In this document: positions 8,020-34,657 of the stretch, piece after piece | Layout: every line of letters begins with the position of its first letter | Position numbering within the stretch: the first letter of the stretch is position 1 | Origin: Nitrospinaceae bacterium | GTDB lineage: Bacteria; Nitrospinota; Nitrospinia; Nitrospinales; Nitrospinaceae | DNA: 64,000 nt | Direction: 5' to 3' | NCBI GenBank assembly: GCA_029261535.1 | Contig: JAJDBF010000011.1 | Location: 62,001 to 126,000 of the forward strand | Program-made: the position numbers and the translations under genes | The notes under the pieces: generated by a model | Told to the model about the DNA's origin: nothing | Seen by the model: the letters and a program-made list of their open reading frames with translations, nothing else | Databases searched by the model: none

Positions 8020-9987
8020 TCAATCTTGTTGGCGAAGCCAGCTCTGGAACATCAGAACAGCCCATAAATGATGCGGCCATGAAAATTTTCCGGACAGGTG
8101 CTCGCGCCATTTTTTTTGTATAGGCTCTGGGTTTAGATATCCTTCGTCACGCATGCGTTTTTCATCTAGCAGGTCCTCCGCCCAGTCGCGCAGAGGTCCG
8201 CGTAGCCATTGGTGCAGGGGAATGGAGAACCCCATCTTGGGTCGTTCGATGAGCGCATCGGGAATGTAGCGACTGAGAACCTGCCGAAGTAACCACTTAC
8301 TTTTCCCATTTCTGATTTTCATGGACAGCGGTAAACGCCAGGCAAATTCGACGACACGGTGATCCAGCAGGGGGACCCGCGTTTCCAGACTCACCCCCAT
8401 GCTGGCGCGATCCACTTTGGTCAGGATGTCTCCCGGCAGATAACCGGTCAGGTCCATCAGCATCATATCCTGCGAATAATTTTCAAGCGGCGCGATTGCA
8501 GGTAACCCGGGTGTGATGCTGGAAAAACCTGACTGACCCTGCACAAGTTTTTCGCCGAGGCCCCAATGAGTGATCATCCGGAAAAATAAATCGCGACGGG
8601 ATCGCGCTGGCAGAACCTCTGCCAGTTTATGAATTTTGTCGCCGATGTTGCTGTGTCTTAAACTGGCGGGCAATATCGGGTCAAGCAGGTGGAACAACGC
8701 GTCCCAACTGGCTGGCGAGAGTGCTGTGCAAAGTTTACTACCGGCGCGGCGCAAGGGTGGCGGAAACAGATTCATGCGTCGCCATAAGTTGGGAGACATC
8801 ATATAACGATTGTAGCCGCCAAACACTTCATCGCCGCCGTCACCGGAAAGACTCACCTTCACATGGCGTTGCGTCAGCTCGGAGACGAGAAACGTGGGAA
8901 TCTGGGAAGAGTCCGAAAACGGTTCGTCATATAGTGTTGGCATTTTTGGGATCACATCGCGCGCTTGCTTGGGTGTGACATACAGTTCGGTGTGGTCGGT
9001 GTTGAGGTGCCGGGCGACCGCCTTGGCGTACTCGGCCTCGTTATAATCTTTCTCAGCGAATCCGATAGAAAATGTTTTGACTGGAGAAACGCTTTCCGCC
9101 TGCATCAAAGCGGTCACTGTCGAGGAGTCGATACCGCCGGATAAAAATGCGCCGAACGGGACATCCGCAATCATGCGCAGACGAACCGAGTCGCGTAGCA
9201 GGTGATCGAGTTGGTCAATGGCTTCCTGATCGTTTCCAGAAAATGGATTGGCTAGTCCGTCATGCGCCACTTGTTCGACGGTCCAGTAAGGTGTTGGTTC
9301 AGGAAGCTGATGAGAGAAAGGTGCCGGAATGGAAATTAAATTTCCCGGAGGCAGTTTGAAAATATTCTGATAGATCGAATGCGGCGGCGGGATGTATGCG
9401 TACAGCATATACAGTTGTAACGCGGTGCGGTCGATCTCACCGGAAAAAACGGGATGGTGCCGCAGAGGTTTCAACTCGGAGCCAAAGAAAAACGTATCGT
9501 TTTGCCAGCCGTAATAAAGAGGCTTGATGCCCATACGGTCGCGCGCCAGATGCAATGTGCGCTCCTTTCGATCCCACAAAGCAAAGGCGAACATGCCGAT
9601 GAAACGCTCAAGTGCCTGGGCCAGACCCCATTGTTCAATGCAGGCGAGGATGACCTCGGTGTCCGAGTGTCCCTTCCATCCATCGAAAGATTCTGTCCTG
9701 CCTGAACTGTTGTCCAGCTCTTCCCTCAACGCCGCAAAATTGTAGATTTCACCGTTGTAGCTGATGACGTAGCGGCCCGTCGGGGACAACATGGGTTGAT
9801 GGCCCATCGGTGACAAATCAATAATGGACAATCGGGTGTGCCCGAAGTAGACCCCGGCAGTGCGATCCATCCATTGCCCCCGGTCGTTCGGTCCCCGGTG
9901 ATGCAAGGCCTCGCACATCGACTCCAGCGTCTTCGCCGGATCGTTTAAGTTTGAATTTTGACTGATGAAGCCAACGATGCCGCACAT
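8020..9987 (-). CDS. asnB: Asparagine synthase-type glutamine amidotransferase
   Basis: The 655-residue protein begins MCGIVGF, giving the N-terminal Cys nucleophile of class II glutaminase domains after Met removal. The glutaminase domain spans about 1-200 (RGPNDRG at 31-37, YNGEIYN at 77-83). The synthetase domain carries the PP-loop SGGIDSS at 283-289 that binds ATP. It would transfer glutamine-derived ammonia to a carboxylate activated as acyl-AMP. AsnB makes asparagine, but AsnB-like enzymes in O-antigen loci amidate uronic acids. Placement between a glycosyltransferase and a WbpI-like epimerase, in a cluster that makes acidic HexNAc sugars, favours the latter, though this is inference. 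A palindromic repeat lies directly upstream. Confidence 0.93.
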   Translation of the reverse strand: MCGIVGFISQNSNLNDPAKTLESMCEALHHRGPNDRGQWMDRTAGVYFGHTRLSIIDLSPMGHQPMLSPTGRYVISYNGEIYNFAALREELDNSSGRTESFDGWKGHSDTEVILACIEQWGLAQALERFIGMFAFALWDRKERTLHLARDRMGIKPLYYGWQNDTFFFGSELKPLRHHPVFSGEIDRTALQLYMLYAYIPPPHSIYQNIFKLPPGNLISIPAPFSHQLPEPTPYWTVEQVAHDGLANPFSGNDQEAIDQLDHLLRDSVRLRMIADVPFGAFLSGGIDSSTVTALMQAESVSPVKTFSIGFAEKDYNEAEYAKAVARHLNTDHTELYVTPKQARDVIPKMPTLYDEPFSDSSQIPTFLVSELTQRHVKVSLSGDGGDEVFGGYNRYMMSPNLWRRMNLFPPPLRRAGSKLCTALSPASWDALFHLLDPILPASLRHSNIGDKIHKLAEVLPARSRRDLFFRMITHWGLGEKLVQGQSGFSSITPGLPAIAPLENYSQDMMLMDLTGYLPGDILTKVDRASMGVSLETRVPLLDHRVVEFAWRLPLSMKIRNGKSKWLLRQVLSRYIPDALIERPKMGFSIPLHQWLRGPLRDWAEDLLDEKRMRDEGYLNPEPIQKKWREHLSGKFSWPHHLWAVLMFQSWLRQQD

Positions 9988-10003
9988 GGATTTTAAATTT
10001 TGC

Positions 10004-10126
10004 AGGGCCTCTAAAAAATGTTTCAGGTTGCGAGGTGTTCGCGCACGGCTAACAAAGATTTCCTCTGTTAAATTAAGGAAACGCGAGTTGTCGGACCTGA
10101 AATTTTTGAATGATTAGAGGTGTCCT
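10004..10126. repeat. Palindromic repeat element, copy 2 (intergenic)
   Basis: This element of about 123 bp fills almost the entire gap between asnB and the upstream glycosyltransferase. The ends are AGGGCCTCTAAAAAATG and the inverse TGATTAGAGGTGTCCT. An inner inverted pair TTTCAGGT / ACCTGAAA makes the whole unit a long imperfect palindrome. The right half (GCGAGTTGTCGG...GAAATTTTTGAA) aligns with copy 1 and with the copy inside the pseudouridine synthase gene. Confidence 0.65.
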
Positions 10127-10130
10127 GACG

Positions 10131-11225
10131 TTAAGTGTTGATACAAAAATCGTAAAGGTTTTTGGTGATGACTTTGGAATCGATAAACGGTGTGGCCGCA
10201 GAGCGAATTTTGGCACGAGAGGTCTGCCGATGACTTTCGGCAAATTCAAGAGCCTGCATCAGGTTGAATCCGGTTTGTTTCAAGGCGAAAGGAAATCCTT
10301 CCGGAATCGCGGGATCATTGTAACCCAGTACGATGGGAAGTCCTGCCGCCAGATACTCTCTGACCTTGAGCGGTGTGGCTTGCGTTAACCCGATAGTCGA
10401 AAACATCAGACTGCCAACCCCAAGATGCATGCGCCGGTATAAATTGAGAACCTGTTCACGTTCAAGGGTGCCATGGAGGGTAAACTCTGGCACGTCATGA
10501 TATTTTTTTTCCATTTCAGGCTTCAAGCGCCCGACGAGATGCAATTCAAAAGGCGGTAAATTCGATGAGGATTTGATTTGTTCGAGCAGGGCATCGAGAC
10601 CGTGCCAGGGAGAAAAGGTTGTGGAAACCATTACCAGCTGTAACGGCTCGGATGGGTCAAGTGCGGAGGAATCTACCGGGGTTGCGGGATAGGTGTCGAG
10701 GTCAATCCCGTTTGGAAAAAAACCGGCAGGGCCTTTAAATCCCGAACGCGCCACTTCGTAGTCGAGAATTTCGGGAGTGACCGCCGTGATCGCCCGGAAA
10801 TTTTTGATCCAGGAGCCTCCCATCCATTTTTCAAAGATCAGGCGGATATCGCCATTGACCTTGAGCTCCGGCACTTCCTTGGTGTGGTGTTCGAGGATTA
10901 TTTTATGCGTGTCCTGCAAGAATAGAAACATCACCGGGTCGATGAGTGGATACCGTAGGAGCAGGAGGTCGTATTGCTCGATCAACTCTTTTATGGCGCG
11001 GCATTGTCTGAGCCGAACGCTGATCGGGTTGCCACCTCCAACCGGTTTGATGTGAAGATGCGTGTAGCGGTCATCGCCCGGATAAGTTTGCTTGGGTAGC
11101 CAGTAAAAATCAAAAGGCAAGCCTAACTCCTTCGCCACTTTGGCTTGCATATTGATCTTTGACAGAATGCTATGCGACCGTTGCTTGAAATTGGAAGGGG
11201 CCAGGTTAATGTATGCAATACGCAC
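10131..11225 (-). CDS. Glycosyltransferase, GT4-like
   Basis: The 364-residue cytosolic protein has the two-lobed GT-B pattern. The N-terminal half holds short Rossmann-type elements (ILEHHTKEVPEL, AITAVTPEI). The C-terminal half holds the nucleotide-sugar binding region: FFPNGIDLD near 167-175, LQLVMVSTTFSPWHGLDALL, LHLVGRL, and a late KVREYLAAGLPIVLG corresponding to the family's E-x7-E segment (the second Glu is not obvious). It probably adds one sugar to the lipid-linked oligosaccharide at the inner face of the membrane. Donor and acceptor cannot be read. It is transcribed with the neighbouring minus-strand genes; the 154-base gap upstream shows no clear hairpin. Confidence 0.85.
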   Translation of the reverse strand: MRIAYINLAPSNFKQRSHSILSKINMQAKVAKELGLPFDFYWLPKQTYPGDDRYTHLHIKPVGGGNPISVRLRQCRAIKELIEQYDLLLLRYPLIDPVMFLFLQDTHKIILEHHTKEVPELKVNGDIRLIFEKWMGGSWIKNFRAITAVTPEILDYEVARSGFKGPAGFFPNGIDLDTYPATPVDSSALDPSEPLQLVMVSTTFSPWHGLDALLEQIKSSSNLPPFELHLVGRLKPEMEKKYHDVPEFTLHGTLEREQVLNLYRRMHLGVGSLMFSTIGLTQATPLKVREYLAAGLPIVLGYNDPAIPEGFPFALKQTGFNLMQALEFAESHRQTSRAKIRSAATPFIDSKVITKNLYDFCINT

Positions 11226-11379
11226 CGAGTCTCCTTATCGTGTCATCCATCGCCTGCACTGAAAAAAATAATCAGTATCAGGTGGGCGGGATCAGACTAC
11301 GGATTTAATTGTGTAGCAGTTCCAGTGCCCGGTTCAGGTTTTAAAACTTTCCCCCTGCACTTCTGCTTAAAAATTATTT

Positions 11380-12129
11380 TCAATTGGTCTTTTCTGCAAC
11401 AATGATGCATTGTCCGCAGGCGATATTTCGCAGAAAGGGAATTTGTTCAACAATCGGTCCGGCGGCACGCAAAACCCTTGCCATCCAGTTGGGACAGAAC
11501 ATGGGAACAAGATTAAACACCCTGTTGGAGCGGACACTAAATCCGGAATCCGTGAGCCAGGATGCGATTGTCGAAGGAGAAAATGAACGTTCCTCGTGTT
11601 CAATATGGTACCGCGAAAATTTTTCCAACAGTTTGAGTACAGGGTTATTGCCATTTGGCTCAAGAACGATAATGGTGCCGTTGAATGATGCCAGGCTGGC
11701 AATTGCGCCCGGTGGATCAGGAAGATGATGTAGAACACCACGTAGAACGATGCAGTCGAAGCGTTGGTCTGTGAAATAGTTTTCAAGTGCATAGATATTG
11801 CCCACTTCGAATTTTACGACCGCCTCCAGCCCGAGTTTTCGCGATTTGGCATTGGCTGAATCCACTGCAGATTCTGCCGGGTCCACCCCCAGAATTTCCC
11901 TGACACCCATCCGGGGATATTCCAATGTGTATGTACCATCACCACAACCCAGATCAAGAACGGTCTTTTCTTTAAAAGGATAGGACTCGGCAATACAATC
12001 GGTGAACCGCGAGTTGGCAATAGAAGCAGACAAGCGATCTGTAGTGTATGCATAAGAGCCTGTCTGTCTGACATCTTCATCAAACTGGCTGACATTCTTC
12101 TTGAGAGTTTTGCCCTGGTCTTCAGTCAT
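11380..12129 (-). CDS. Class I SAM-dependent methyltransferase
   Basis: I take the start at ATG 12129 (MTEDQGKT), which overlaps the end of the upstream gene by eight bases (ATGACTGA) and indicates translational coupling. The product has 249 residues. Motif I is VLDLGCGDGTYTLEY at about 57-71, followed by GVDPAESAV (acidic residue after strand 2) and a LRGVLHHLPDP motif IV/post-IV segment. These bind S-adenosylmethionine. The C-terminal part is hydrophobic around NWMARVLRAAGPIVEQIPF. In this context it probably methylates a sugar or a lipid-linked intermediate. Small-molecule target unknown. Confidence 0.85.
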   Translation of the reverse strand: MTEDQGKTLKKNVSQFDEDVRQTGSYAYTTDRLSASIANSRFTDCIAESYPFKEKTVLDLGCGDGTYTLEYPRMGVREILGVDPAESAVDSANAKSRKLGLEAVVKFEVGNIYALENYFTDQRFDCIVLRGVLHHLPDPPGAIASLASFNGTIIVLEPNGNNPVLKLLEKFSRYHIEHEERSFSPSTIASWLTDSGFSVRSNRVFNLVPMFCPNWMARVLRAAGPIVEQIPFLRNIACGQCIIVAEKTN

Positions 12130-13054
12130 TATTGTCCTCTTTGGGTTTGATCGCGACAGCAAGCATGTTCCCAACATTTAGAGACAATGGCGTGTGTGAT
12201 AGGCCTGTGCATTTCAGGAGTTGAAAAATAAATTTTTTTAATCCAGATGGCAAAGGCGTAAGGCGTAACCAGTATCTTGCAGGGTAAGTATTTCCAATCG
12301 ATTGGATATTGATTGATGTGAATCCTTTTGTTTCAAGGAGGCAACGCATTGACCGTGTGTTGAAAAGTTGCAAGTGTTCCACATCCATAATGGGTGAACG
12401 TGAACCCAGTATACGATTCAGTGGCGCACGCCAGTTGTGAACAACAACTGCGAGCATACCGCCAGGCTCTAATGAATCGTAGGCCAGCCCAATAAATTCT
12501 CCGGGGTCAGGTAAATGTTCCAGCGTCATAAAGGAACACACCAGTGAAAACCTGATATCTTCAAGCAAGGCAGGTGAAAACATACCTTCCTTCAGCATGG
12601 GGCGGATATCAGAAGATGCCGCATCAATAGCGGCACGCGAAGGTTCGATGCCTATCACCGGGTCAAAGCCACATTTGGACAGCCAGGGCAGAAGCGGCCC
12701 ACTACCCGCCCCAACGTCTACCGCGCCATTTCGTCCCGCAAGGTGGTCGACATGATGTGATAATAAATTTGAATAGTTGCGGGCGGCGGCCAGGGCTTCC
12801 TGCTCGGAGTCGAAAGCCGCATCCGAATAAGCTGTCGATAAGAACTCTACAGGCGGGGGTGCGGGAGCATAAACGAGATCACATCTCCGGCAACGCACCA
12901 GACGCAGGCACATGAACTCTGGTTCCTTGCGTGATGAATAAGTGAAGTTGTTAATCTGGCTTGCATTTATTCGCTCATCGGCAAAGTGCTCATGAGTTCT
13001 GTTACCACAAACCGGGCAGGGCCTTTCCAAGCTGTCCGGATTGGCATGCGGCAT
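12122..13054 (-). CDS. Zinc-ribbon plus SAM-dependent methyltransferase
   Basis: The 310-residue protein starts with a zinc-binding module: CPVCG at 13-17 and CRRC at 55-58. A class I methyltransferase domain follows, with AVDVGAGSGPLLPWL (motif I, about 111-125), GIEPSRAAIDAA and FMTLEHLPDPGEF. This arrangement occurs in sugar C-methyltransferases (NovU/TylC3 type), but those carry a further C-terminal domain and are about 400 residues long; this one stops after the methyltransferase. It is sandwiched between the SDR-GT2 fusion (two-base gap) and the second methyltransferase (eight-base overlap), so all three are one transcript. A carbohydrate substrate is likely from context. Confidence 0.85.
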   Translation of the reverse strand: MPHANPDSLERPCPVCGNRTHEHFADERINASQINNFTYSSRKEPEFMCLRLVRCRRCDLVYAPAPPPVEFLSTAYSDAAFDSEQEALAAARNYSNLLSHHVDHLAGRNGAVDVGAGSGPLLPWLSKCGFDPVIGIEPSRAAIDAASSDIRPMLKEGMFSPALLEDIRFSLVCSFMTLEHLPDPGEFIGLAYDSLEPGGMLAVVVHNWRAPLNRILGSRSPIMDVEHLQLFNTRSMRCLLETKGFTSINIQSIGNTYPARYWLRLTPLPSGLKKFIFQLLKCTGLSHTPLSLNVGNMLAVAIKPKEDNND

Positions 13055-13056
13055 GC

Positions 13057-15018
13057 TTAAACTCGAACCCGGTGGCGGGCCGGGCGTATTTCACCGCGCA
13101 TAATCAGGTTGCGTCGAATAAAATGGGGCCGAGCTTTAGCTTCTTCAAATATTTTTCCAATGTATTCGCCAAGGAGCCCTATTCCTAAAATGGTAAAGGA
13201 ACCAAAGAACATGACAATAAGTGAGATATAAGTTAATCCTTTAGGGACCGATTCCGGGAACAGCAGGCGCACAACGATACTGTATATAGCCAAGCCTATT
13301 GTGCCCAGGGTGGTCATTCCGCCAAGTGCTGTCAGCATGTGGAGGGGAATGCGTGTGAAAGAAAAAATACCCTTCTTGGCCCAGCCAATATTTTTTATCC
13401 AGTTATTGGTGCTTTTACCAAACATACGTTCAGGGCGTTCATAGTCAACCCCAACCTGATTAAAGCCTACATAAGCACGCAATCCACGGAGGAAGGCGTC
13501 GCGCTCCTGACATTGCAATAACCAATAGACCACAGAACGATCCATCAGGGAAAAATCTCCGGCATCTTTAGGGACAGCAATTTCGCTCATTGCCGAAAAC
13601 AATCGATAAAAACCGCGGTAACAGGTTTCAAGTAAAACCGACATCTTACGTTTGACCCGTCGTCCAAAAACAACATCAGCACCCGCCTTCCACTCCTGGA
13701 CAAAACTCTCAATCAGTTCCGGTGGGTCTTGAAGATCTCCGTCCAGAAGAACGCAGGCCTCTTTACTGGCAAGTTCCATTCCGCTTCTAAAAGCAGACTG
13801 CGAGCCAAAATTTCTTGAGTGGGTGATCCCGATCACGTGAGGGTCTTTCGCGCTAATTTCCCTGATGATTTCAGTGGAATTGTCCGGCGAGCAATCGTTG
13901 ACGAATATTATTTCATAATCCAGTCCAAGCCGATTGAAGACGGTGACCAATCGCTCATGCATGATCGGAATGGCCTGCTCATCTTTATAGCAAGCGATAA
14001 CCGCAGAGACCGAATTTTTTTCCTGGTGATGATGTTTCTTGGTGAGTTTTGAGAAATCAACTTCCACGAGATAATTTTTCCACCATTCGCGAGTTTCCGC
14101 CAACCCCTCTTTCAATCTAATTTTTGCAGTCCACCCTAATGCTTCTTTTGCCTTTTTTGGATTGGCAAACCAGTTATTGACATCCCATGCACGCCCCATT
14201 TCCGGATTGAATCGGGGCTCTTCCTGAATATCAAACAACTCTTTTGTAAGGCTGGCGAGGGAAGCAAGCGAGGTCTGAATACCGGTTCCTATATTAAAAG
14301 ATTCTCCTGCAATCTCCGGGGACATGCGAGAGGCGGCATCAATAAAGGCTTCAATGGCATCATCGATATGTAAGAAATCTCTGGATATTTCTGAATGCGC
14401 AAATGTGGGAAGTTTGCCCTTGATACTCTCTGAGCAAAGTGTCGGTATCAGGCGCGAACTGTCTTCATAAGGGCCATATATAGAATATAAACGCAGGTTG
14501 ACAATGGGCACGCCTCGAACTTTTCCATAGTAAGAAATCGCGTGGCTCGCCGCCGCTTTACTGACTGCATAGTGACTGTTCGGAATCAAACACTCTGCTT
14601 CCTCTGGGCCTGATGCATTGATCCCATATTCAGATGAACTGCCTGCGTGGATATATGCAGATAAATCAAGCTCCTGAATTTCTTCCATAAGACTAATAAA
14701 GCTCGAGTAATTTGTGGAATGCACGCGTGCAATATCCTTTTCGAAGGAATAAGCACCAAAAGACGAGCAATCAAATATTGTCTTGGGTTTTACACGATGG
14801 AAAAGAGATAGAACGCTTATAGGATCCTGAAGATTTAAAAATGAAACATGACCTGCCGGAATACCTTCGAGACGCCAGGAGTCTCCCGAGAAAACGGTAC
14901 CGACAATATCCTCCCGACTTTCCAGGCAACGGCGAAGCAAATTAGCCCCCACAAAGCCACTTGCACCGATCACAAGAATAGGGCCCGCCAGGCTTTTAAT
15001 TTTGTTATCAAGATTCAT
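13057..15018 (-). CDS. Fusion of NAD-dependent sugar epimerase/dehydratase and GT2 glycosyltransferase
   Basis: The start at ATG 15018 is preceded by GGGGGGAA and overlaps the transketolase stop as ATGA. The 653-residue protein has two parts. Residues 1-320 form an extended SDR domain: GASGFVG at 18-24, GSSSEYG around 126-132 and the catalytic Y150xxxK154. Residues 337-653 form a GT2 domain of the DPM1/ArnC/GtrB type: SAVIACYKDE, VNDCSPDNS, DGDLQDP at 426-432 holding the DxD, then two membrane helices at about 560-582 and 597-620. The second half would load a sugar onto undecaprenyl phosphate at the membrane, and the first half may make that sugar. The frame is continuous with a short KKHHHQEKN linker, so there is no sign of a sequencing fusion. 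Confidence 0.9.
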   Translation of the reverse strand: MNLDNKIKSLAGPILVIGASGFVGANLLRRCLESREDIVGTVFSGDSWRLEGIPAGHVSFLNLQDPISVLSLFHRVKPKTIFDCSSFGAYSFEKDIARVHSTNYSSFISLMEEIQELDLSAYIHAGSSSEYGINASGPEEAECLIPNSHYAVSKAAASHAISYYGKVRGVPIVNLRLYSIYGPYEDSSRLIPTLCSESIKGKLPTFAHSEISRDFLHIDDAIEAFIDAASRMSPEIAGESFNIGTGIQTSLASLASLTKELFDIQEEPRFNPEMGRAWDVNNWFANPKKAKEALGWTAKIRLKEGLAETREWWKNYLVEVDFSKLTKKHHHQEKNSVSAVIACYKDEQAIPIMHERLVTVFNRLGLDYEIIFVNDCSPDNSTEIIREISAKDPHVIGITHSRNFGSQSAFRSGMELASKEACVLLDGDLQDPPELIESFVQEWKAGADVVFGRRVKRKMSVLLETCYRGFYRLFSAMSEIAVPKDAGDFSLMDRSVVYWLLQCQERDAFLRGLRAYVGFNQVGVDYERPERMFGKSTNNWIKNIGWAKKGIFSFTRIPLHMLTALGGMTTLGTIGLAIYSIVVRLLFPESVPKGLTYISLIVMFFGSFTILGIGLLGEYIGKIFEEAKARPHFIRRNLIMRGEIRPARHRVRV

Positions 15019-15908
15019 GAATTCCCCCCTGAAACCATATCGCGAATCCCCGGCGCATCCAATCCACATTCCGCCCTGTGAAATTCCTGAGAGCCATATC
15101 GACCTGATGGATAGCGCAAGGCGTGGCGGTGAACAAACCCTGAGGTCTGGATTCCTTTGTGAACCATGGAGAGCGACAAGTGCATTCCAAGACCACCCGC
15201 GGCAACATGCTCTTCAAGTATAAACAGATTTTGATTCTCAATCTGTTTCCAGAAAGTTTCTGGAATTTCTTCGTCAACAAATTCCGTTACAGCCCAGACC
15301 GATGGCCTGCTCTCAATAGGTGTTTCTTGCAAGGCCTGCCACGCAACGCCAGCAAGGGGCCCCAAGGCCGCAATGGCCCCCTGCTCCCCATTAAGTACCT
15401 GCCTCCAGGGAGAGTATTGAGGGATGACCGTATTTTCAGGACGAACGTCATATCCCAGTCTAAGGTAAGTGGGGGAGGAAATCTCCATCAGCATGGCAGA
15501 AATATCTTCATCAAAAGCTGGGATCAGAACCCGGACCCCCAGCGCATTCATTGCCGCACAATCCTCAAGGGCGTGATGAGTAGGCCCCATACATCCATAG
15601 GCAAAGCCGCCACCATTCCCGACTAAACAAACAGGGAGGTTTGAAAAACAAATATCATTCCGAATTTGTTCATAGGGACGGGCAAAGCAAAATGGCGCAA
15701 TGCTATAAATAAAAACTTTTAATCCTTCGCGTGCAAGGCCGGAAGCCAATCCAATCATATTTTGTTCTGCAACACCGGCATTAATAAAGCGGTCCCCAAA
15801 AGTTGCCTGAACTTCCTCAAGTGCCATAAACCCCAAGTCTCCAGTGAGGAAAAAACAATCATTATTATTCCACTGCGAAACAATAGTCTTGGCAAAAATA
15901 TTTCTCAT
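15015..15908 (-). CDS. Transketolase C-terminal subunit (pyrimidine-binding)
   Basis: This 297-residue protein corresponds to the second half of transketolase. It has the GDLGFMALEE start, DRFINAGVAEQNMIGLASGLA around 40-60 with the catalytic Glu that activates thiamine diphosphate, and a C-terminal LEEHVAAGGLGMHL region. Together with the adjacent N-terminal subunit it should form a split TPP enzyme that moves a two-carbon ketol unit. It is two bases downstream of its partner and overlaps the SDR-GT2 fusion by four bases, so it sits in the middle of a glycan operon rather than with pentose-phosphate genes. A role in making an unusual sugar is inferred. Confidence 0.9.
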   Translation of the reverse strand: MRNIFAKTIVSQWNNNDCFFLTGDLGFMALEEVQATFGDRFINAGVAEQNMIGLASGLAREGLKVFIYSIAPFCFARPYEQIRNDICFSNLPVCLVGNGGGFAYGCMGPTHHALEDCAAMNALGVRVLIPAFDEDISAMLMEISSPTYLRLGYDVRPENTVIPQYSPWRQVLNGEQGAIAALGPLAGVAWQALQETPIESRPSVWAVTEFVDEEIPETFWKQIENQNLFILEEHVAAGGLGMHLSLSMVHKGIQTSGFVHRHALRYPSGRYGSQEFHRAECGLDAPGIRDMVSGGNS

Positions 15909-15910
15909 GA

Positions 15911-16705
15911 TTAATTTTTCTCAGAGATCTTTGAACGCGCTGTGAAATATTGTTCTTCAGAAAGAGGAAGATAGTGGGACTCCAGTTGGCCTTCAAAATG
16001 TAAATCCTTCCCCTTGACAGTATCTAAAATCAAAATATTGGGTTTTTCAGCCGATTTATTTTTTAAAGAGGCATAAATTTCTGAACAGTCATGACCATTT
16101 AATTTCTGAACATGCGCGCCGAAAGATGAAATTCTGGGAGTTAAATCGTCGCAAGATATTACATCGCTCGTTTTGCCGAACCCTTGCCAACCATTCTGAT
16201 CAATAATGATGGTCAAATTATCCAGTTGGCGATGAATTGAAAAAGCGAGTGCTTCCCAACAGCTTCCTTCCTGCCATTCACCATCTGAGCATAAACAATA
16301 GATGTGACGACCCGAACCTTTATGTTTCGAGGCCAAAGCCAGACCCACAGCAAGAGAAGGGCCATGCCCCAATGAGCCAGTAGGGAAAAGCAGGCCAGGG
16401 ATCCCTTTCCCACTGGGATGTGCCGGAAGAAATGTATTGTCTTTGCTAAAAGTTTTTAATTCCGAGTCCGATAATTTTCCAAGGCTCCAAAGGGTAATAT
16501 ACAAAGCCCCGGCAGAATGGCCTTTGGATAAAATAAAACGATCTTCAGGTTTCATGACCAAATGATGCAGGGTCATCAAAGCGTCGATGCAGGAAAAGTT
16601 ACCGCCCAAATGACCGGAATTTGCATCATGATGCATTTGCAAAAGCCTGGATTTGGATGATTTTAGTAATGCATCAAAGTTTTTATTCATTTGACCAGTT
16701 GACAT
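15911..16705 (-). CDS. Transketolase N-terminal subunit (TPP-binding)
   Basis: The 264-residue protein is the first half of a split transketolase. It has GHLGGNFSCIDAL near 31-43, SKGHSAGALY near 79-88, GSLGHGPSLAVGLA near 112-125, and the diphosphate/Mg-binding motif CSDGEWQEGS...IIIDQNGWQG (the GDG-x(n)-N pattern of TPP enzymes with Ser in the first position). Size and division point are the same as in other two-gene transketolases. It begins 14 bases after the stop of the polytopic membrane protein and is followed by its partner two bases on. Confidence 0.9.
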   Translation of the reverse strand: MSTGQMNKNFDALLKSSKSRLLQMHHDANSGHLGGNFSCIDALMTLHHLVMKPEDRFILSKGHSAGALYITLWSLGKLSDSELKTFSKDNTFLPAHPSGKGIPGLLFPTGSLGHGPSLAVGLALASKHKGSGRHIYCLCSDGEWQEGSCWEALAFSIHRQLDNLTIIIDQNGWQGFGKTSDVISCDDLTPRISSFGAHVQKLNGHDCSEIYASLKNKSAEKPNILILDTVKGKDLHFEGQLESHYLPLSEEQYFTARSKISEKN

Positions 16706-16719
16706 CGTGCTGATTTTTT

Positions 16720-18531
16720 TTAGGTCCTGGATGTCCTTTTAGCCGAGCAGGCTTCCGAGGCATTTTGAGTTGAGCGAATGGGTTTGAAAAATTTTTGGAC
16801 ATAAACTTCCTTGAACCCACCCGCGCCTTTAGCAGTATTTATTATACCAACGATTTCAAAGTCTGTACTCAGATTTGCGCCAAAACTCTGGAGGATATTT
16901 GGTGAAACTTTTCTGGGGCCTTCAGGCTCGATTAATAACCATGCGGTTGCAAGCTCCTTACACGATAATTTTTTTAACATCATAATTGCCAATGCTTCAC
17001 TTCCGGGGTAACCGCCGACCGTCCACGGTTGTCCAATATTTTTTGCTCCTATTGCATAAAGAATTCCTGGCGATTTGCCTGTCAAATCGATCATGGGGGT
17101 TGCCTGAATGAACCCGGCTTGGCGCGAAACTTTTACTGCCGCCTGAATATAATTTGCAAAGTCTTTGGAAAGAACCAATGTAGAGCCAGGTTTTCCAAAT
17201 GTAACTCGTTGGTCATTTAAATGGAGGGGTTGCGTCTGCCGGTAGGGTTTTTGAAATCCGTTATGGACTTGCACGACCGATATCAACTGAACCGAAAGAC
17301 CTAGTGATAAAAGTAATGGAGAAAGTTTTAGATGAGGAGCCAGGGGAACCAAAAAAACAAGGCCTGAAAATACCCAGAAAATTCCGGCCGAAGCCGCCGA
17401 AGCCCAGTAATTATTTCCTGTCCCGAAAGCATAAACAAATGGAAAAATAAAGAAGGTCAAGGCCAACGCCCAATGGGGCTGTGACATCTTGAAAGGTCCT
17501 TTCTTGCGGTAAAAAATGTAGCCAACAATCAACGTAGCGATGGGGATAGAACCAATATAGAGGCCCTGAAATCTATCCGGGAAAATTGTTTCCTGGGTGG
17601 TCTCAATCAAAATGGAAAGGCAGGACAACTCAATGAGAATTGAAAGAGAGGCGGCGAAAATCACCCAATGGGTTTTGATCGACTGGGAATAGTAAGCCGA
17701 AAGGAAAAAGGCAACCGTGCATCCGAAAATAAAAAAAAGCGAGCCAAGGCTGAAATAAAAAAAATCTAAACGAAACAAACTTCCATGTCCCCCTGCCTGG
17801 AGTATTTTATACATTTCTGCTCCAGCTTTTAGCCGATTGACAAAGGTGAAAATTGAACCATCTATGATCAAGGCAGAAAGAATTATAAAACTCAAGGCGA
17901 TCAGAATGGGGGTCACCAATGAACTTGTTTTAAGTTTTCTGGCAAACCATAAATAAAATATCATGACCACTGCAATAGCGGCGGCGGTCGTCGGTTTTGC
18001 CATAAAGGCCAACCAACCCCCTGCTCCGATCAAAAACAAACCTGAAAAACTTTTTTCAAACAGGAAAAGGCCGATGGCGACAATCAGGAGGGATTGTAAA
18101 GCCAGTCGATTGTAACTTGGAGTCGCCAGCCATAAATCCTGATGAACTAGCGAAGCCGCGGCAGTCGCCGCAATGGCTGAAGAAATTACTATTCGATAAA
18201 TTCGAGTCAGAGGTTGACCCGCAAAAACAGTTTTTAAAAATATATCTCCCAGAGCCCAGGACAGGCAAAAGGTAATTAGAAAGTTTGTTTGTCTTATAGC
18301 GGCAACATCGCCGCCAAATAGTTGATACAAGGGATGGTAAATGAAACCAAACTGAGTGGCGGAAACGGGGTAAATGAAAGGGTTCGACATCCATGCGAGG
18401 TAAAAACCTTCATCTGTAAAATCGATCCCGTATCGGCTGTATTCCCATACCCAGCTAATAGTAAGTCCAGTGCAAATAATTGAAAAAAGAATAATTATTT
18501 TTTGAGAGAAAATAGTAATTCGCGTATTCAA
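16720..18531 (-). CDS. Polytopic membrane protein, GT-C (ArnT/PMT-like) candidate
   Basis: The 603-residue product has an N-terminal membrane helix, then DFTDEGFYLAWMSNP near 36-50, and about ten further hydrophobic segments up to residue 420. A soluble C-terminal part of about 170 residues follows. The acidic DE pair in the first outer loop is the hallmark of GT-C transferases that use polyprenyl-phosphate sugars (GT39/GT83 type). Specific family membership is not certain. It starts with TTG at 18531: an in-frame TAA lies a few codons upstream and no ATG is nearby. It precedes the split transketolase by 14 bases. It may transfer a sugar made by the downstream genes to glycan in the periplasm. 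Confidence 0.72.
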   Translation of the reverse strand: MNTRITIFSQKIIILFSIICTGLTISWVWEYSRYGIDFTDEGFYLAWMSNPFIYPVSATQFGFIYHPLYQLFGGDVAAIRQTNFLITFCLSWALGDIFLKTVFAGQPLTRIYRIVISSAIAATAAASLVHQDLWLATPSYNRLALQSLLIVAIGLFLFEKSFSGLFLIGAGGWLAFMAKPTTAAAIAVVMIFYLWFARKLKTSSLVTPILIALSFIILSALIIDGSIFTFVNRLKAGAEMYKILQAGGHGSLFRLDFFYFSLGSLFFIFGCTVAFFLSAYYSQSIKTHWVIFAASLSILIELSCLSILIETTQETIFPDRFQGLYIGSIPIATLIVGYIFYRKKGPFKMSQPHWALALTFFIFPFVYAFGTGNNYWASAASAGIFWVFSGLVFLVPLAPHLKLSPLLLSLGLSVQLISVVQVHNGFQKPYRQTQPLHLNDQRVTFGKPGSTLVLSKDFANYIQAAVKVSRQAGFIQATPMIDLTGKSPGILYAIGAKNIGQPWTVGGYPGSEALAIMMLKKLSCKELATAWLLIEPEGPRKVSPNILQSFGANLSTDFEIVGIINTAKGAGGFKEVYVQKFFKPIRSTQNASEACSAKRTSRT

Positions 18532-18782: not shown

Positions 18783-20273
18783 TTAATCTTTTTGTTGGGC
18801 GGATGTCGGCTTGGCGAGCAGTTGCGGGATACTCATGGTGAGGCGAAAATAAAAAGTGAAGTCTTTTTTGACAATATAGCCCAGTGCCAGAACTGTGAAT
18901 AGGGAAACAGTCAGTTTGATTAAAAAATGTGTCAACGGTTGGGTCCAGGTTAATCGGGATATAAAAACAGAAAACGTCAGGCAGAAGAAAAACGCCAGGC
19001 TGATTTTACCGTAATCCCATTGAAACGGTTCGTGTGGCTGACCGAGTTTGCCAATGATTATGGTCAGGATTAATTGCGAGAGTAGAGTGGCGATGGCGGC
19101 TCCTATCATGCCATATACAGGTATCAGAAAATAATTAAGCCCGACGTTGGCCAGAGCACCTGAGATGGTTCCCGCTGAGACCCATTTAGTAGCTTCCTTA
19201 TTGAACATTAATATATTGACCAGTACATAATAGATACCTCGCAGGACAAAACCAAAAGCGACAAACGGGACTATAAGGTAAGCTGAATGGAATGGTTCCG
19301 CAGTGAACAGTTGTAAAACTTCTTGGGAAAAAAGAGAAACCAGAGTTCCAAATAAACAATATCCACCGATGAGAGTCATGCCATTGGATTTCAGCTCATC
19401 AAGTGAATGTGCCTTATTTTCTTCAAGCGTTTCCATGGCTACTGGAACGTAGGCACGGTTGATGCTGTCTGTCACAATGGTGATGGTGGTTCCGAGGAGA
19501 AAACCAATATGGTAAATGCCAGCAGAGCTTGCACTTATCATCGAGTTTAGAAAAAATTTATCGGTTACTACCATAATTTGTGCTGACAGATTGTGGGGTA
19601 GCAAAGGTAGGCTGTATCGGAGGGCTTTTTTAAACAGATTCCACCGGAACACCCACGTGAAATCTTTTTTGAAATTCGTCAGGGTTATCAGGAAAAAAAG
19701 AATCGAGGTGACCAGGGTGGCAAATAAAGGTCCTTCCGCTTTCCAGCCCAGGAATACCACGAGGGTCAGCATCAGCGTCAATTGGATAATGAGTTGGGAT
19801 ATCGAAAATATGGCGTAATTCCTGGACTTGCCCCGGGCTTGAAGGGTGGAAAGAAAAACCTGGAAAAAAGGTTGAAAAAAAAGGGTGACAATTCCAATAG
19901 TAAAAAAGGGCCAAAAAGGAATATCCCCCATGACTGGTTTTAAGATAAAGGGCCCCGCTACCAGCAAGAAAAAACATCCTGCCAGAGAAAAAAACAGCAT
20001 CGCACAAACCATGGTTCCCCAGAATTCACGCAAGGTTTCAGGGTCTTCCCGGTAATCAAAATAAAACCGGTTGATAGAGGATGGGGGCATTGACCAGGTG
20101 AAAATTATCGACAGGAATCCGCTCAACGTGGTGACCACCGCCAGGATGCCATAGTCGTCTGGTGTCAGGTAGTGGGTGTAGACAGGCAGGAGGAAAAACG
20201 AAATGCCTCTTTGCAGAAGGTTGGCAGCGGTGTAAACGAAAGAGGTCCGACCCAGTTTTTGTGTGGGTGTCAT
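18783..20273 (-). CDS. Oligosaccharide flippase, Wzx/PST family
   Basis: The 496-residue integral membrane protein has about 12-14 predicted helices evenly spread over its length, and starts with a typical TSFVYTAANLLQRGISFFLLPVYTHYLTPDDYG segment spanning residues 10-42. That opening and the length are characteristic of the polysaccharide transporter family of the MOP superfamily. It would flip undecaprenyl-diphosphate-linked repeat units to the periplasmic side, feeding the polymerase/ligase encoded at 28725-30434. The gene lies 60 bases downstream of the UDP-glucuronate 4-epimerase-like gene on the same strand. Confidence 0.9.
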   Translation of the reverse strand: MTPTQKLGRTSFVYTAANLLQRGISFFLLPVYTHYLTPDDYGILAVVTTLSGFLSIIFTWSMPPSSINRFYFDYREDPETLREFWGTMVCAMLFFSLAGCFFLLVAGPFILKPVMGDIPFWPFFTIGIVTLFFQPFFQVFLSTLQARGKSRNYAIFSISQLIIQLTLMLTLVVFLGWKAEGPLFATLVTSILFFLITLTNFKKDFTWVFRWNLFKKALRYSLPLLPHNLSAQIMVVTDKFFLNSMISASSAGIYHIGFLLGTTITIVTDSINRAYVPVAMETLEENKAHSLDELKSNGMTLIGGYCLFGTLVSLFSQEVLQLFTAEPFHSAYLIVPFVAFGFVLRGIYYVLVNILMFNKEATKWVSAGTISGALANVGLNYFLIPVYGMIGAAIATLLSQLILTIIIGKLGQPHEPFQWDYGKISLAFFFCLTFSVFISRLTWTQPLTHFLIKLTVSLFTVLALGYIVKKDFTFYFRLTMSIPQLLAKPTSAQQKD

Positions 20274-26488: not shown

Positions 26489-27391
26489 TTAAATGTCCGG
26501 CCCCTCTGTCATACAGTGGTTGAGGGCCTGCTCCCAGGTTGGCGGGGCGACATCAAAGGTACGCGCGAGTTTTGAGTTGTCCAGCACAGAATGCCTGGGC
26601 CGGACCGCAAGCGTCGGGTATTCACTTGTCGGGATGGGTGAAAGAGTGGGAGGACACTCAAGCCCCAGCGCATCGACAATCGCCCTGGTAAAACCAAACC
26701 ATGTGGTCTGACCCGCCGAGGTTAGATGATAGACTCCCGAAACGTTTTTTAAATTTTCCGGATTTTCTTTGAGTTGTGCCCCCAGTATTTTTTCAAGAGC
26801 GGTCACCGTTGTCCGGGCGATGGTTCTGCACCAGGTGGGCGCGCCGTGTTGGTCGTCGATGACTTTAAGTTCCGGACGTTCCTTGGCGAGGCGCATCATG
26901 GTCAAAAGAAAATTTTTGCCGCGCAAGCCATACACCCAACTGGTTCGGAAGATAAGATGTGGTGCTCCACTTTTCTGTATCGCCTGATCCCCTTCAAGTT
27001 TCGTAGCCCCGTAAACACTCAACGGTTCGGCCTCATCGTCTTCCACATAAGGGGTGTCTTTCTCACCAGAGTAAACGTAGTCGGTGGAATAGTGGATCAG
27101 TGCCGCGCCTGCCCGCCCCGCCTCTTCTGCCAGCAGTGCCGGAACTCCGGCGTTTAACAGTTGAGCCGCTTCCGGCTGTTCTTCGGCCTTGTCGACCTGA
27201 GTGTAAGCCGCGGCATTGATGATGATGGCTGGTTGAATCTCGCGGATGGTACTGCGTACGTTTTCAAACTGGCGCAGATCCAGGTTGTGCAGATCGAATG
27301 TCTTTAACTCTGAACGGGAGGCGAGTGACTGTTCCAGTTCAAACCCTACCTGGCCTCGGCATCCAATGAGCATGATAGTGGGAAGTGGCAT
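26489..27391 (-). CDS. rmlD: dTDP-4-dehydrorhamnose reductase
   Basis: The 300-residue SDR has GCRGQVG at 10-16, the family-typical STDYVYSG at 102-109 and catalytic Y127xxxK131 (YGATK LEG). The RTSWVYG and DDQHGAPTW segments are diagnostic for RmlD. It reduces dTDP-4-keto-L-rhamnose to dTDP-L-rhamnose using NAD(P)H. It lies between capF and capE, so it could instead belong to the FucNAc pathway as a reductase; the sequence signature favours rhamnose. RmlA and RmlB are 6-8 kb away in the same locus. Confidence 0.93.
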   Translation of the reverse strand: MPLPTIMLIGCRGQVGFELEQSLASRSELKTFDLHNLDLRQFENVRSTIREIQPAIIINAAAYTQVDKAEEQPEAAQLLNAGVPALLAEEAGRAGAALIHYSTDYVYSGEKDTPYVEDDEAEPLSVYGATKLEGDQAIQKSGAPHLIFRTSWVYGLRGKNFLLTMMRLAKERPELKVIDDQHGAPTWCRTIARTTVTALEKILGAQLKENPENLKNVSGVYHLTSAGQTTWFGFTRAIVDALGLECPPTLSPIPTSEYPTLAVRPRHSVLDNSKLARTFDVAPPTWEQALNHCMTEGPDI

Positions 27392-32114: not shown

Positions 32115-32681
32115 TTAAAACTCGTCGTCCAGGATTTCACAGATGATATGACCCATCGTGATATGCGCTTCCTGAATGCGGGCGGTTTCCGAAGAGGGGA
32201 CCACCAGAGCGAGATCCACAATATCTTTTAGTGCACCGCCATCTTTTCCCAGCAGACCGATCGTCTGGATCCCCATCGCCTGTGCTTGTTGCACTGCCCG
32301 GATGACATTTTCCGATTGCCCACTGGTGCTGATGGCAAGCACGACATCATTTTTTTGTCCCAGCCCTTCGATCTGTCGCGAAAAGATTTCTTCAAAACCA
32401 TAGTCGTTGCCAATGGCAGTGAGGGCGGAAGTGTCGACAGTCAGTGCCAGTGCTGGAATCGATTGCCGCTCCTTTTTGTATCGCCCCACCAGTTCCGCCG
32501 CGATGTGCTGGGCATCCGCCGCGCTCCCGCCGTTGCCCATGAGGAGCAGTTTGCCGCCACTTTTAAGACTGTGCCGAACCATGCCGATGGCCCGGTCGAT
32601 GTCCTCCGCCATGGTGTCGGCGATGGTGCGTTTGAGATCGGCACTGTTGTTGAGGAATGCACGGATTCGATCCTGACTCAT
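32115..32681 (-). CDS. gmhA: Sedoheptulose-7-phosphate isomerase (SIS domain)
   Basis: The 188-residue protein is a single SIS domain with the GmhA signatures [19 protein letters not shown] at about 49-67, [17 protein letters not shown] and [12 protein letters not shown]. It converts sedoheptulose-7-phosphate to D-glycero-D-manno-heptose-7-phosphate, the first step of ADP-heptose or GDP-heptose synthesis. No hldE, gmhB or hldD is in the window. The start codon overlaps the rmlA stop by four bases (ATGA), so it is the last gene of the wbpA-wbpE-rmlB-rmlA-gmhA unit. Confidence 0.95.
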
Positions 32682-33568
32682 CGTTGGTGCGGCCTTCCGC
32701 TCTTGGCGAGCTTGAGAAGATATTGTCCGTAATTATTTTTGGCCAGAGGCTCCGCCAGTATTGCCAGTTGATCGGCAGAGATGGTCCCCATGTTGAAAGC
32801 GACTTCTTCCGGACAGCAGATTTTCAGTCCCTGCCGCTTTTCGATGGTTTCGATGAAGTTGGATGCAGAGAGCAAGGCATCGTGCGACCCGGTGTCGAGC
32901 CAGGCGTAACCGCGTTGCATGATCTCTACCGTCAACTGTCCGCGTTCCAGATAGACCCGGTTTAAATCCGTGATTTCCAGTTCGCCCCTGGCAGAAGGTT
33001 TCAGGTTGGCGGCGATGTCGATCACTTGATTGTCGTAAAAGTACAATCCGGTAACAGCGTAATTTGATTTTGGATTCGCGGGTTTTTCTTCCAGGCTGAT
33101 GGCACTTCCGTTGTCATCGAATTCGACGACACCATAAATTTCCGGATCGTTCACCCAGTAGCCGAAAACGGTAGCACCCTCGGTGCGTTTGCGGGCGTTG
33201 TTCAACAGGTCGGTCAGTCCGTGTCCGTAGAAAATATTGTCGCCCAAAATCAGACTGCAACTGTCATTGCCGACAAAATCCGCACCAATAATGAATGCCT
33301 GCGCCAGTCCATCCGGGCTGGGTTGCTCGGCATACTGGATGCTTATTCCCCACTGGGTACCATCCTTGAGCAGGGCCTCATACAACGGGCGGTCCTGCGG
33401 TGTGGTGATCACCAGAACTTCATTGATCCCTGCCAGCATCAGCACACTTAGCGGATAGTAGACCATCGGCTTGTCGTACAGAGGCATGAGTTGTTTGCTC
33501 ACGACTTGAGTGAGTGGATACAGCCGCGTCCCCGAGCCACCTGCGAGAATGATTCCTTTTTTTACCAT
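32678..33568 (-). CDS. rmlA: Glucose-1-phosphate thymidylyltransferase
   Basis: The 296-residue protein starts with [17 protein letters not shown], the nucleotide-binding signature, and has the family segments [27 protein letters not shown] and [21 protein letters not shown]. It makes dTDP-glucose from glucose-1-phosphate and dTTP and is the first enzyme of dTDP-L-rhamnose synthesis. It is 30 bases downstream of rmlB and overlaps gmhA. Full length, with nothing missing. Confidence 0.97.
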
Positions 33569-33598: not shown

Positions 33599-34657
33599 TT
33601 AATCCGTTAAACCCAACCGCTCGCCGCGGTAGGCACCGGACATCACCCGCTCCAGCCATTGGCTGTTGTCGAGGTACCAGCGAAGGGTTTTGCGCAAGCC
33701 CGATTCAAAATCATTTTCCGGTTTCCAGCTCAGCTCCTTTTTTATTTTGGAAGCGTCGATTGCATAACGGCGATCGTGTCCCGGTCGGTCCTTCACAAAA
33801 GTGATCAACTCTTCATGCGGTACAGGTCCGCGCTCCGGTGCCATTTCATCCAGCAGGCGGCAGATGGTCTTGACCACTTCAATATTTGGTTTCTCGCTGT
33901 CGCCGCCAATGTTATAGACCTCTCCAGGAGTTCCGGCTTCCAGTACGCGCTGAATCGCCCGGCAATGATCCTCGACGAACAACCAGTCGCGCACCTGCTG
34001 ACCGTCGCCGTAAATCGGTAACGGTTCTCCCGCCAACGCTTTGCCCGTCACCAGCGGGATGAGTTTCTCCGGAAACTGAAACGGACCGTAATTGTTGGAA
34101 CAATTGGTGGTGAGCACGGGCAGGCCAAACGTCCGGTTGTATGCCCGCGCAAGATGATCGGCCCCGGCTTTGGATGCGGAGTAGGGCGAGTTCGGCGCGT
34201 AGGGGGTGGTCTCGGTGAACAACCCGGTTTTCCCGAGCGAGCCATAAACTTCATCAGTGGAAACGTGAAGAAAACGGAAGTCCTCTTTCGCCTGCCCTGC
34301 AAGCGACAGCCAGTGACCCCGGGCTGACTCCAGCATTTCAAACGTGCCGACGACATTGGTCAGGATGAAATCTCCGGGCGATTCAATGGACCGGTCGACG
34401 TGCGACTCGGCGGCAAAATTCACCACATAGTCCGGTGAATGATCTTTAAAAAGGGAACGGACCAGATCGTGGTCGCGGATATCCCCTTCTACGAAAATGT
34501 GATTGGGGTTGCCGCTCAGCGATTGCAAAGTATCGAGGTTGCCCGCGTAGGTCAGGGCATCCAGATTGATCACCTTGACACCGGGCTTCTGCAAGGTCAG
34601 TAGAACAAAGTTGCCGCCAATAAAACCGGCACCGCCTGTTACCAGATATGTTTTCAT
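33599..34657 (-). CDS. rmlB: dTDP-glucose 4,6-dehydratase
   Basis: The 352-residue extended SDR has [11 protein letters not shown] at 7-17, [11 protein letters not shown], the catalytic STDEVYG stretch and [10 protein letters not shown] carrying the Tyr/Lys pair. It dehydrates dTDP-glucose to dTDP-4-keto-6-deoxyglucose, feeding RmlC and RmlD. It sits 23 bases downstream of the PIN-aminotransferase fusion gene. The 4-keto product could also be an aminotransferase substrate, so the neighbouring DegT enzyme might in principle act on it instead of on a UDP-sugar. Confidence 0.97.

Follow-up and report, generated by a model that had tools for sequence, protein, structure and literature searches.

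A split transketolase in a surface-glycan gene cassette of a Nitrospinaceae bacterium and its possible role in making a branched sugar

Introduction

YerE is a single-chain flavoprotein. In the biosynthesis of yersiniose A of the Yersinia O-antigen, it catalyzes the thiamine diphosphate (ThDP)-dependent addition of two carbons to CDP-4-keto-3,6-dideoxyglucose; its gene lies beside ddhA-D, and the yersiniose clusters carry YerE and YerF beside the genes for this keto-sugar, according to two sources (PMC12247030, PMC4509608). Here, we describe a different candidate for such a reaction, a split transketolase encoded by the half-genes TKN and TKC in a Nitrospinaceae bacterium. The genome comprises 3.45 Mb in 84 contigs (those named here are C7, C10, C11, C23, and C26), and the window, i.e., the whole stretch of 64,000 nucleotides that was analyzed, is C11:62001-126000. 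YerE uses pyruvate and belongs to the decarboxylase type of ThDP enzymes, whereas the window pair is a two-chain transketolase with transketolase donor residues.

Two-chain architecture is also found in the split transketolase of Carboxydothermus hydrogenoformans (6yaj/6yak), the best sequence and Foldseek match to the window pair. The apulose-4-phosphate transketolase AptA/AptB is split as well and acts on a branched sugar, but it is catabolic and its substrate is phosphorylated. The pairs Pau11/Pau12 and AviB1/AviB2 belong to another ThDP class. For the octoses of paulomycin and avilamycin, these two-protein enzymes (Pau11/Pau12 with Pau7) were proposed to form a two-carbon branch at C-4, followed by a ketoreductase; unlike in our proposal, pyruvate is the proposed donor, and the proven ketoreductase of the paulomycose C-4 branch is an aldo/keto reductase, as stated in PMC4753412. 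In the miharamycin and amipurimycin clusters, a transketolase encoded by split genes was proposed to move a hydroxyacetyl unit to a keto-sugar, and the same 2025 review gives 13 split-transketolase candidates, all streptomycete and none shown in vitro (PMC12247030). Those are antibiotic clusters, whereas the loci described here, compared by description only, are surface-glycan cassettes of Gram-negatives, the candidate phyla radiation (CPR), cyanobacteria, and others. Split transketolases acting on keto-sugars have thus already been proposed in Streptomyces, where they are unproven; what we add is the surface-glycan branch of the idea and one phage-borne copy. A search of the open-access literature found no publication that describes split transketolases in gene clusters for surface glycans, which does not exclude that one exists.

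Results

The split transketolase pair

The minus strand of the window carries a run of glycan genes, and the pair sits within this run. Most likely, it is an extra enzyme dedicated to a surface-glycan sugar and not to central metabolism. Our preferred reading, to which we give about an even chance on the basis of sequence, is that the pair is a two-chain transketolase of a mobile surface-glycan cassette and would transfer a hydroxyacetyl unit to a nucleotide keto-sugar, to be followed by ketoreduction and loading onto polyprenyl phosphate.

15911..16705, minus strand: TKN, transketolase N-half, ThDP-binding subunit (264 amino acids; PF00456, E = 2.5e-28)
15015..15908, minus strand: TKC, transketolase C-half, pyrimidine-binding and C-terminal domain (297 amino acids; PF02779, E = 1.7e-17)

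Both open reading frames (ORFs) are present, and the two halves lie 2 bases apart on the minus strand, as had been noted in the initial annotation. Pfam and NCBIfam class the pair with the transketolases and not with the YerE type. The AlphaFold2 model of TKC (pLDDT 91.9) has as its top Foldseek match the Carboxydothermus split transketolase (6yaj, C-terminal chain); with separate adjacent half-genes and this fold, the pair has a two-chain architecture.

TKN retains the equivalents of E. coli TktA H26, H66, H100, D155, E160, N185, and H261, and TKC those of E411 and H473; the GDG of the ThDP motif is SDG in the window pair. The equivalent of H100, which in transketolases contacts the C1-OH of the donor, is His in TKN and Phe in the DXS of the same genome. 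Hence, a hydroxyacetyl donor would be favored over an acetyl donor. Transfer of an acetyl unit from pyruvate, the reaction type of DXS or YerE, would give a yersiniose-like 1-hydroxyethyl branch and is consistent with the fold of TKC, which ranks near DXS (VIA-align Z 31.8), and with its close scores for the transketolase and DXS models (70.9 vs. 63.1 bits). We nevertheless consider it quite improbable, as TKN scores 171.5 bits with the transketolase model and 40.0 bits with the DXS model and keeps the His that DXS has replaced.

The acceptor pocket

At the acceptor end, TktA S385, H461, D469, and R520 correspond to M28, G99, M107, and Y153 in the window TKC, which does not carry the pentose-phosphate transketolase signature at these positions (S385 fell into a gap in the first TktA comparison, and M28 was taken from a later alignment). 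In two studies on the E. coli enzyme, S385 and H461 are tied to phosphate binding, the S385Y/D469T/R520Q variant has a wider acceptor range and lacks a phosphate contact, and changes at H461 and R520 also move the enzyme toward non-phosphorylated or bulky acceptors (PMC5073344, PMC3657141). As judged by these residues, the acceptor pocket of the pair differs from that of the pentose-phosphate enzyme.

The glycan-type TKCs have Gly at the H461 position and His at the H473 position in 27 out of 27 sequences, and G99, Y104, and H111 are invariant among them. The housekeeping split TKCs of the phylum (C10 type, see below) retain the equivalents of H461, D469, and R520 in all 30 loci, the Arg at the R520 position of one of them (L107) being read from a separate look-up. 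H461, D469, and R520 equivalents are also retained in the Carboxydothermus enzyme, and those of H461 and D469 in an annotated example of AptA/AptB (L116), unlike in the window pair. In a tree of split transketolases, the glycan type is separated from the other split transketolases with a support of 0.94, and many nodes are weak.

We also observed that the C10-type split transketolase has Ala at the TktA H473 position (GPDGPTAQ) in all 30 phylum loci (C10, L087-L115), where the glycan-type pair has His.

Other transketolases in the genome and in relatives

A Transketolase_N search of the genome gave three places: a split pair on C10, the window pair, and DXS on C26. The second split transketolase is located at C10:144481-146219 (loci L001 and L086). 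A second transketolase, for which the initial annotation had suggested a check, is therefore present, and the window pair as the only transketolase of the genome is rejected. A single-chain transketolase of 664-742 amino acids is also found in 5 of 5 cassette genomes tested (L010, L011, L013, L014, and L015, out of the nine close loci described below). In the search of relatives, 32 of 41 genomes contain a C10-type TKC (E < 1e-100); the other matches are DXS, fragments, or other pairs.

The pair could also be an ordinary extra pentose-phosphate transketolase that lies in a glycan locus by chance, and the other transketolase of the genome is indeed split, too. We regard this as very improbable given the second transketolase in every cassette genome tested, the altered acceptor pocket, and the conservation of the cassette across distant bacteria (see below).

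Genes adjoining the pair

14035..15018, minus strand: extended short-chain dehydrogenase/reductase (SDR) domain, likely ketoreductase (PF01370, E = 1.8e-34; starts at an ATG overlapping the TKC stop)
13057..14034, minus strand: glycosyltransferase family 2 (GT2) domain with C-terminal membrane helices, polyprenyl-phosphate glycosyltransferase type (PF00535; 5ekp, sll0501 type, E = 4.9e-57; ArnC, 9hwj, E = 7.6e-43)
12122..13054, minus strand: S-adenosylmethionine-dependent methyltransferase 1, MT1 (PF13489, E = 7.9e-18)
11380..12177, minus strand: S-adenosylmethionine-dependent methyltransferase 2, MT2 (PF13847, E = 7e-20)
16720..18531, minus strand: polytopic membrane protein that resembles GT-C enzymes in topology only (upstream of TKN, with 14 bases between the two genes)

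PF01370 and PF00535 were found in one ORF beside the pair, which bears out the SDR-GT2 fusion noted earlier. The coordinates of this fusion (13057-15018) take as start the in-frame ATG at 15018, which shares the sequence ATGA with the TKC stop; the longest ORF begins at 15069. The boundary between the two domains was set by us at residue 345. The SDR domain contains the motifs GSSSEYG (GSxxEYG) and YAVSK (YxxxK), with SSSEYG where 4,6-dehydratases have STDEVYG. Without the S/T-D-E triad, it does not belong to the nucleoside diphosphate (NDP)-sugar 4,6-dehydratases. In the SDR tree, it clusters with SDRs adjoining other split transketolases, apart from RmlB, RfbG, GalE, Gmd, and Fcl (support 0.94-0.97). 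In Paenibacillus, TKN and the SDR form a single fusion protein. In loci without this SDR, classical short-chain dehydrogenases lie downstream of TKC (L021, L022, and L027), and in Azospirillum L117, an aldo/keto reductase follows an epimerase-family protein downstream of TKC.

The GT2 domain matches 5ekp through the C-terminal membrane part and belongs to the sll0501/ArnC-type polyprenyl-phosphate glycosyltransferases. GT2 proteins of the sll0501/GtrB type load polyprenyl phosphate, and this activity is established for ArnC according to its database annotation.

The polytopic protein closely flanks the pair, as expected from the initial annotation, but the overlap given there is replaced by a gap of 14 bases, and the GT-C label is unproven, as the protein has no Pfam or NCBIfam match. 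A homologue with 42% identity is found at the same position in L013. The AlphaFold2 model of this protein (pLDDT 36.6, from a 2-sequence alignment) is unusable. A PADLOC search gave no match.

Distribution of the cassette

Scanning genomes with TKC yielded 32 loci, which, together with four plasmid stretches and seven loci from the phylum of the window, form a set of 43. Loci were counted by tblastn because taking the longest ORF as the gene gave wrong calls where the G+C content is high (L011 and L014-L016). In nine close loci (L008-L016), TKC is 64-71% identical to the window TKC. They come from a delta-proteobacterium, Thiodictyon, Pseudomonas protegens, Zoogloea, Accumulibacter, a Rhizobiales bacterium, Pseudoduganella, Xanthomonas, and Duganella. 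TKN, TKC, SDR and GT2 (as an SDR-GT2 fusion), and MT1 occur in a row in all nine and MT2 in six, i.e., the pair is co-inherited with glycan genes.

In the whole set, 14 of 43 loci carry TKN-TKC-SDR-GT2 without interruption, including Syntrophobacteraceae, metagenome-assembled genomes (MAGs) of a cyanobacterium and of Chitinophagaceae, a Methylobacterium plasmid, and one locus from the phylum of the window (L081). An SDR of the window kind adjoins the pair in 20 of 43 loci; in L018, the contig end falls within the SDR. A search of 2 genomes of the same genus and 9 of the same family did not find the pair at a threshold of E = 1e-30. Among 77 genomes of the phylum, only the window's own copy scored above 500 bits, and the next match had 210 bits. 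The G+C content is 0.456 for 11380-18531 and 0.503 for the whole window. As nine unrelated taxa share the gene order and the near relatives searched lack the pair, horizontal transfer of the cassette is the simplest account.

Several loci of other make-up were noted. An apparent TKC-SDR-GT2 triple fusion in Methylobacterium aquaticum L041 was rejected since the 948-amino-acid ORF is a read-through of the frame in which TKC is not encoded. In one locus of a Microgenomates MAG (L029:3164-6681 and 9802-12495), two distinct split transketolase pairs are encoded on opposite strands; an SDR accompanies one of them and a GT2 the other. On a Rhizobium anhuiense plasmid (L118:4100-8221), a split transketolase occurs with an acyltransferase, a small protein of 79 amino acids, and an AMP-binding enzyme, which looks like a different pathway. 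On a Solidesulfovibrio plasmid (L043:3299-8948), it lies within a PseB/PseC cluster with a phosphotransferase; hence, an amino sugar may serve as the acceptor in that cluster.

Nucleotide-sugar genes and the acceptor

33599..34657, minus strand: dTDP-glucose 4,6-dehydratase RmlB, which may supply the keto-sugar acceptor (TIGR01181, 491 bits vs. a cut-off of 365; 16.9 kb from TKN)
32678..33568, minus strand: glucose-1-phosphate thymidylyltransferase, RmlA type (PF00483, E = 1.3e-79; best reference match RfbA)
32115-32681: GmhA-type SIS isomerase (SIS_2), start overlapping the RmlA gene end by 4 bases
26489-27391: RmlD-like reductase, wider glycan locus
28725-30434: Wzy/ligase-like protein, wider glycan locus
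18783-20273: Wzx-like flippase, wider glycan locus

The RmlC gene lies outside the window on C23. As RmlA and RmlB are encoded in the same glycan locus and the genome has no RfbF/RfbG above the curated cut-offs, dTDP-4-keto-6-deoxyhexose is our best guess for the acceptor in the window, not a finding. Among the close loci, a dehydratase is found in L013, where RfbB-RfbA immediately precede the cassette, and in L015, where Rml genes lie on the opposite strand at a distance of about 2 kb.

RfbF, RfbG, and RfbH, the route to CDP-4-keto-3,6-dideoxyglucose, adjoin the pair in 4 of 43 loci (L024, L028, L044, and L079). RfbH is above its curated cut-off in the three of these loci that were tested; RfbF and RfbG are above theirs in L079 and below in the CPR loci L024 and L028. 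Partial sets occur in L042 (RfbF and RfbG), L030 (RfbF), L026 (RfbG at the contig start), and L029 (an RfbH-like protein). Two-carbon transfer to a sugar aldehyde, i.e., chain extension instead of branching at a ketone, would agree with the aldehydes that are the normal transketolase acceptors, and no residue examined separates aldehyde from ketone use. It seems unlikely to us because the partners of clear function, RfbF-RfbG-RfbH and RmlB, yield 4-keto sugars and not aldehydes.

The GmhA-type gene overlapping RmlA suggests a heptose route in the same locus. It may thus be asked whether the pair makes an unusual ketose phosphate, such as a heptulose or octulose phosphate, which is then isomerized, activated, and used as a sugar nucleotide. 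GmhA-like isomerases adjoin transketolase pairs in L082 and L083, and kinase-like APH proteins lie near the pairs in L082 and L043. For the references searched, though, the cassette contains no conserved kinase or nucleotidyltransferase gene, the phosphate-contact positions of TKC are altered, and the GmhA gene of the window is 15 kb from the pair, with none seen near the pairs of close homologues. We hold this route to be rather unlikely.

In the same genome, a pair resembling RfbF/RfbG but below both curated cut-offs is encoded at C7:89188-90857 (L085:11186-12858), a possible second source of a keto-sugar.

A phage-borne copy

When viral contigs were scanned with the TKC alignment, two loci (L132 and L133) were detected; they are counted as one element because they are identical over 4455 bases. 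The element (L132:4808-9262) encodes TKN, TKC (GNGGGYGYGIMGATHH, with RLGY as in the window-type pocket), and the SDR; a B12/radical SAM protein precedes this set, and a GMA12-type glycosyltransferase follows it. A phage primase/helicase is encoded on one side and a tail-collar fibre protein on the other. There is no GT2 domain behind the SDR; hence, TKN-TKC-SDR is isolated here as the minimal unit. It is perhaps a sugar-branching set for glycan or DNA modification.

Discussion

The suggestion of the initial annotation, a two-carbon transfer for an unusual glycan sugar and not for the pentose phosphate pathway, agrees with the second transketolase, the co-inheritance with glycan genes, the altered acceptor pocket, and the relatives in NDP-keto-sugar pathways. 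In the proposed pathway, a 4,6-dehydratase would first make a keto-sugar nucleotide, most likely dTDP-4-keto-6-deoxyhexose in the window and CDP-4-keto-3,6-dideoxyglucose in the relatives with RfbF-RfbG-RfbH. TKN/TKC would then move a hydroxyacetyl (glycolaldehyde) unit from a ketose or hydroxypyruvate to the keto carbon, in analogy to the acetyl transfer by YerE, so that a tertiary alcohol bearing a two-carbon branch would form. The ketone of this branch would be reduced by the SDR domain to give a 1,2-dihydroxyethyl group, the fused GT2 domain would put the sugar on undecaprenyl phosphate, and the polytopic protein may pass it to the glycan outside the membrane; MT1 and MT2 would methylate the sugar. 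We infer the donor, the acceptor, the branching position, the order of the steps, and the polyprenyl loading from gene content and residues, and the choice of the sugar and of a branched over a chain-extended product is inferred likewise.

Several observations weigh against the preferred reading. VIA-align places DXS slightly above the split transketolase for TKC (Z 31.8 vs. 29.4). H461 is also missing from the split transketolases that Agrobacterium, Pantoea, and Acinetobacter encode in sugar-use loci, with Arg at 520 retained, and we therefore rejected the loss of H461 alone as proof of glycan specificity. SDRs related to that of the window occur in Azospirillum RfbF-RfbG-RfbH clusters for which no transketolase is listed and may reduce C-4 itself. 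Within the stretches examined, 7 of the 9 close loci contain no RfbA, RfbB, RfbF, or RfbG of note (a 59-bit RfbF match in L010 was not counted), and the genome itself has no RfbF or RfbG above the curated cut-offs. The assignment of the acceptor sugar is therefore tentative.

Taken more broadly, the loci would represent a widespread, horizontally moving class of split transketolases that act on NDP-keto-sugars, form a hydroxyacetyl and then dihydroxyethyl branch at a tertiary carbon of sugars in surface glycans, and replace YerE in CDP-dideoxyhexose pathways, with a dedicated and sometimes fused SDR and with a phage carrying the minimal set. From the sequences compared, we consider this claim as probable as its opposite.

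The cassette supplies many new candidates for ketone-acceptor transketolases, some of them in cultivated Gram-negatives, with defined partner genes and nucleotide-sugar pathways, which makes them directly testable. As natural enzymes, they differ at exactly the positions (385, 461, 469, and 520) that engineers alter in E. coli transketolase. A branched surface sugar is predicted in strains whose glycans can be analyzed.

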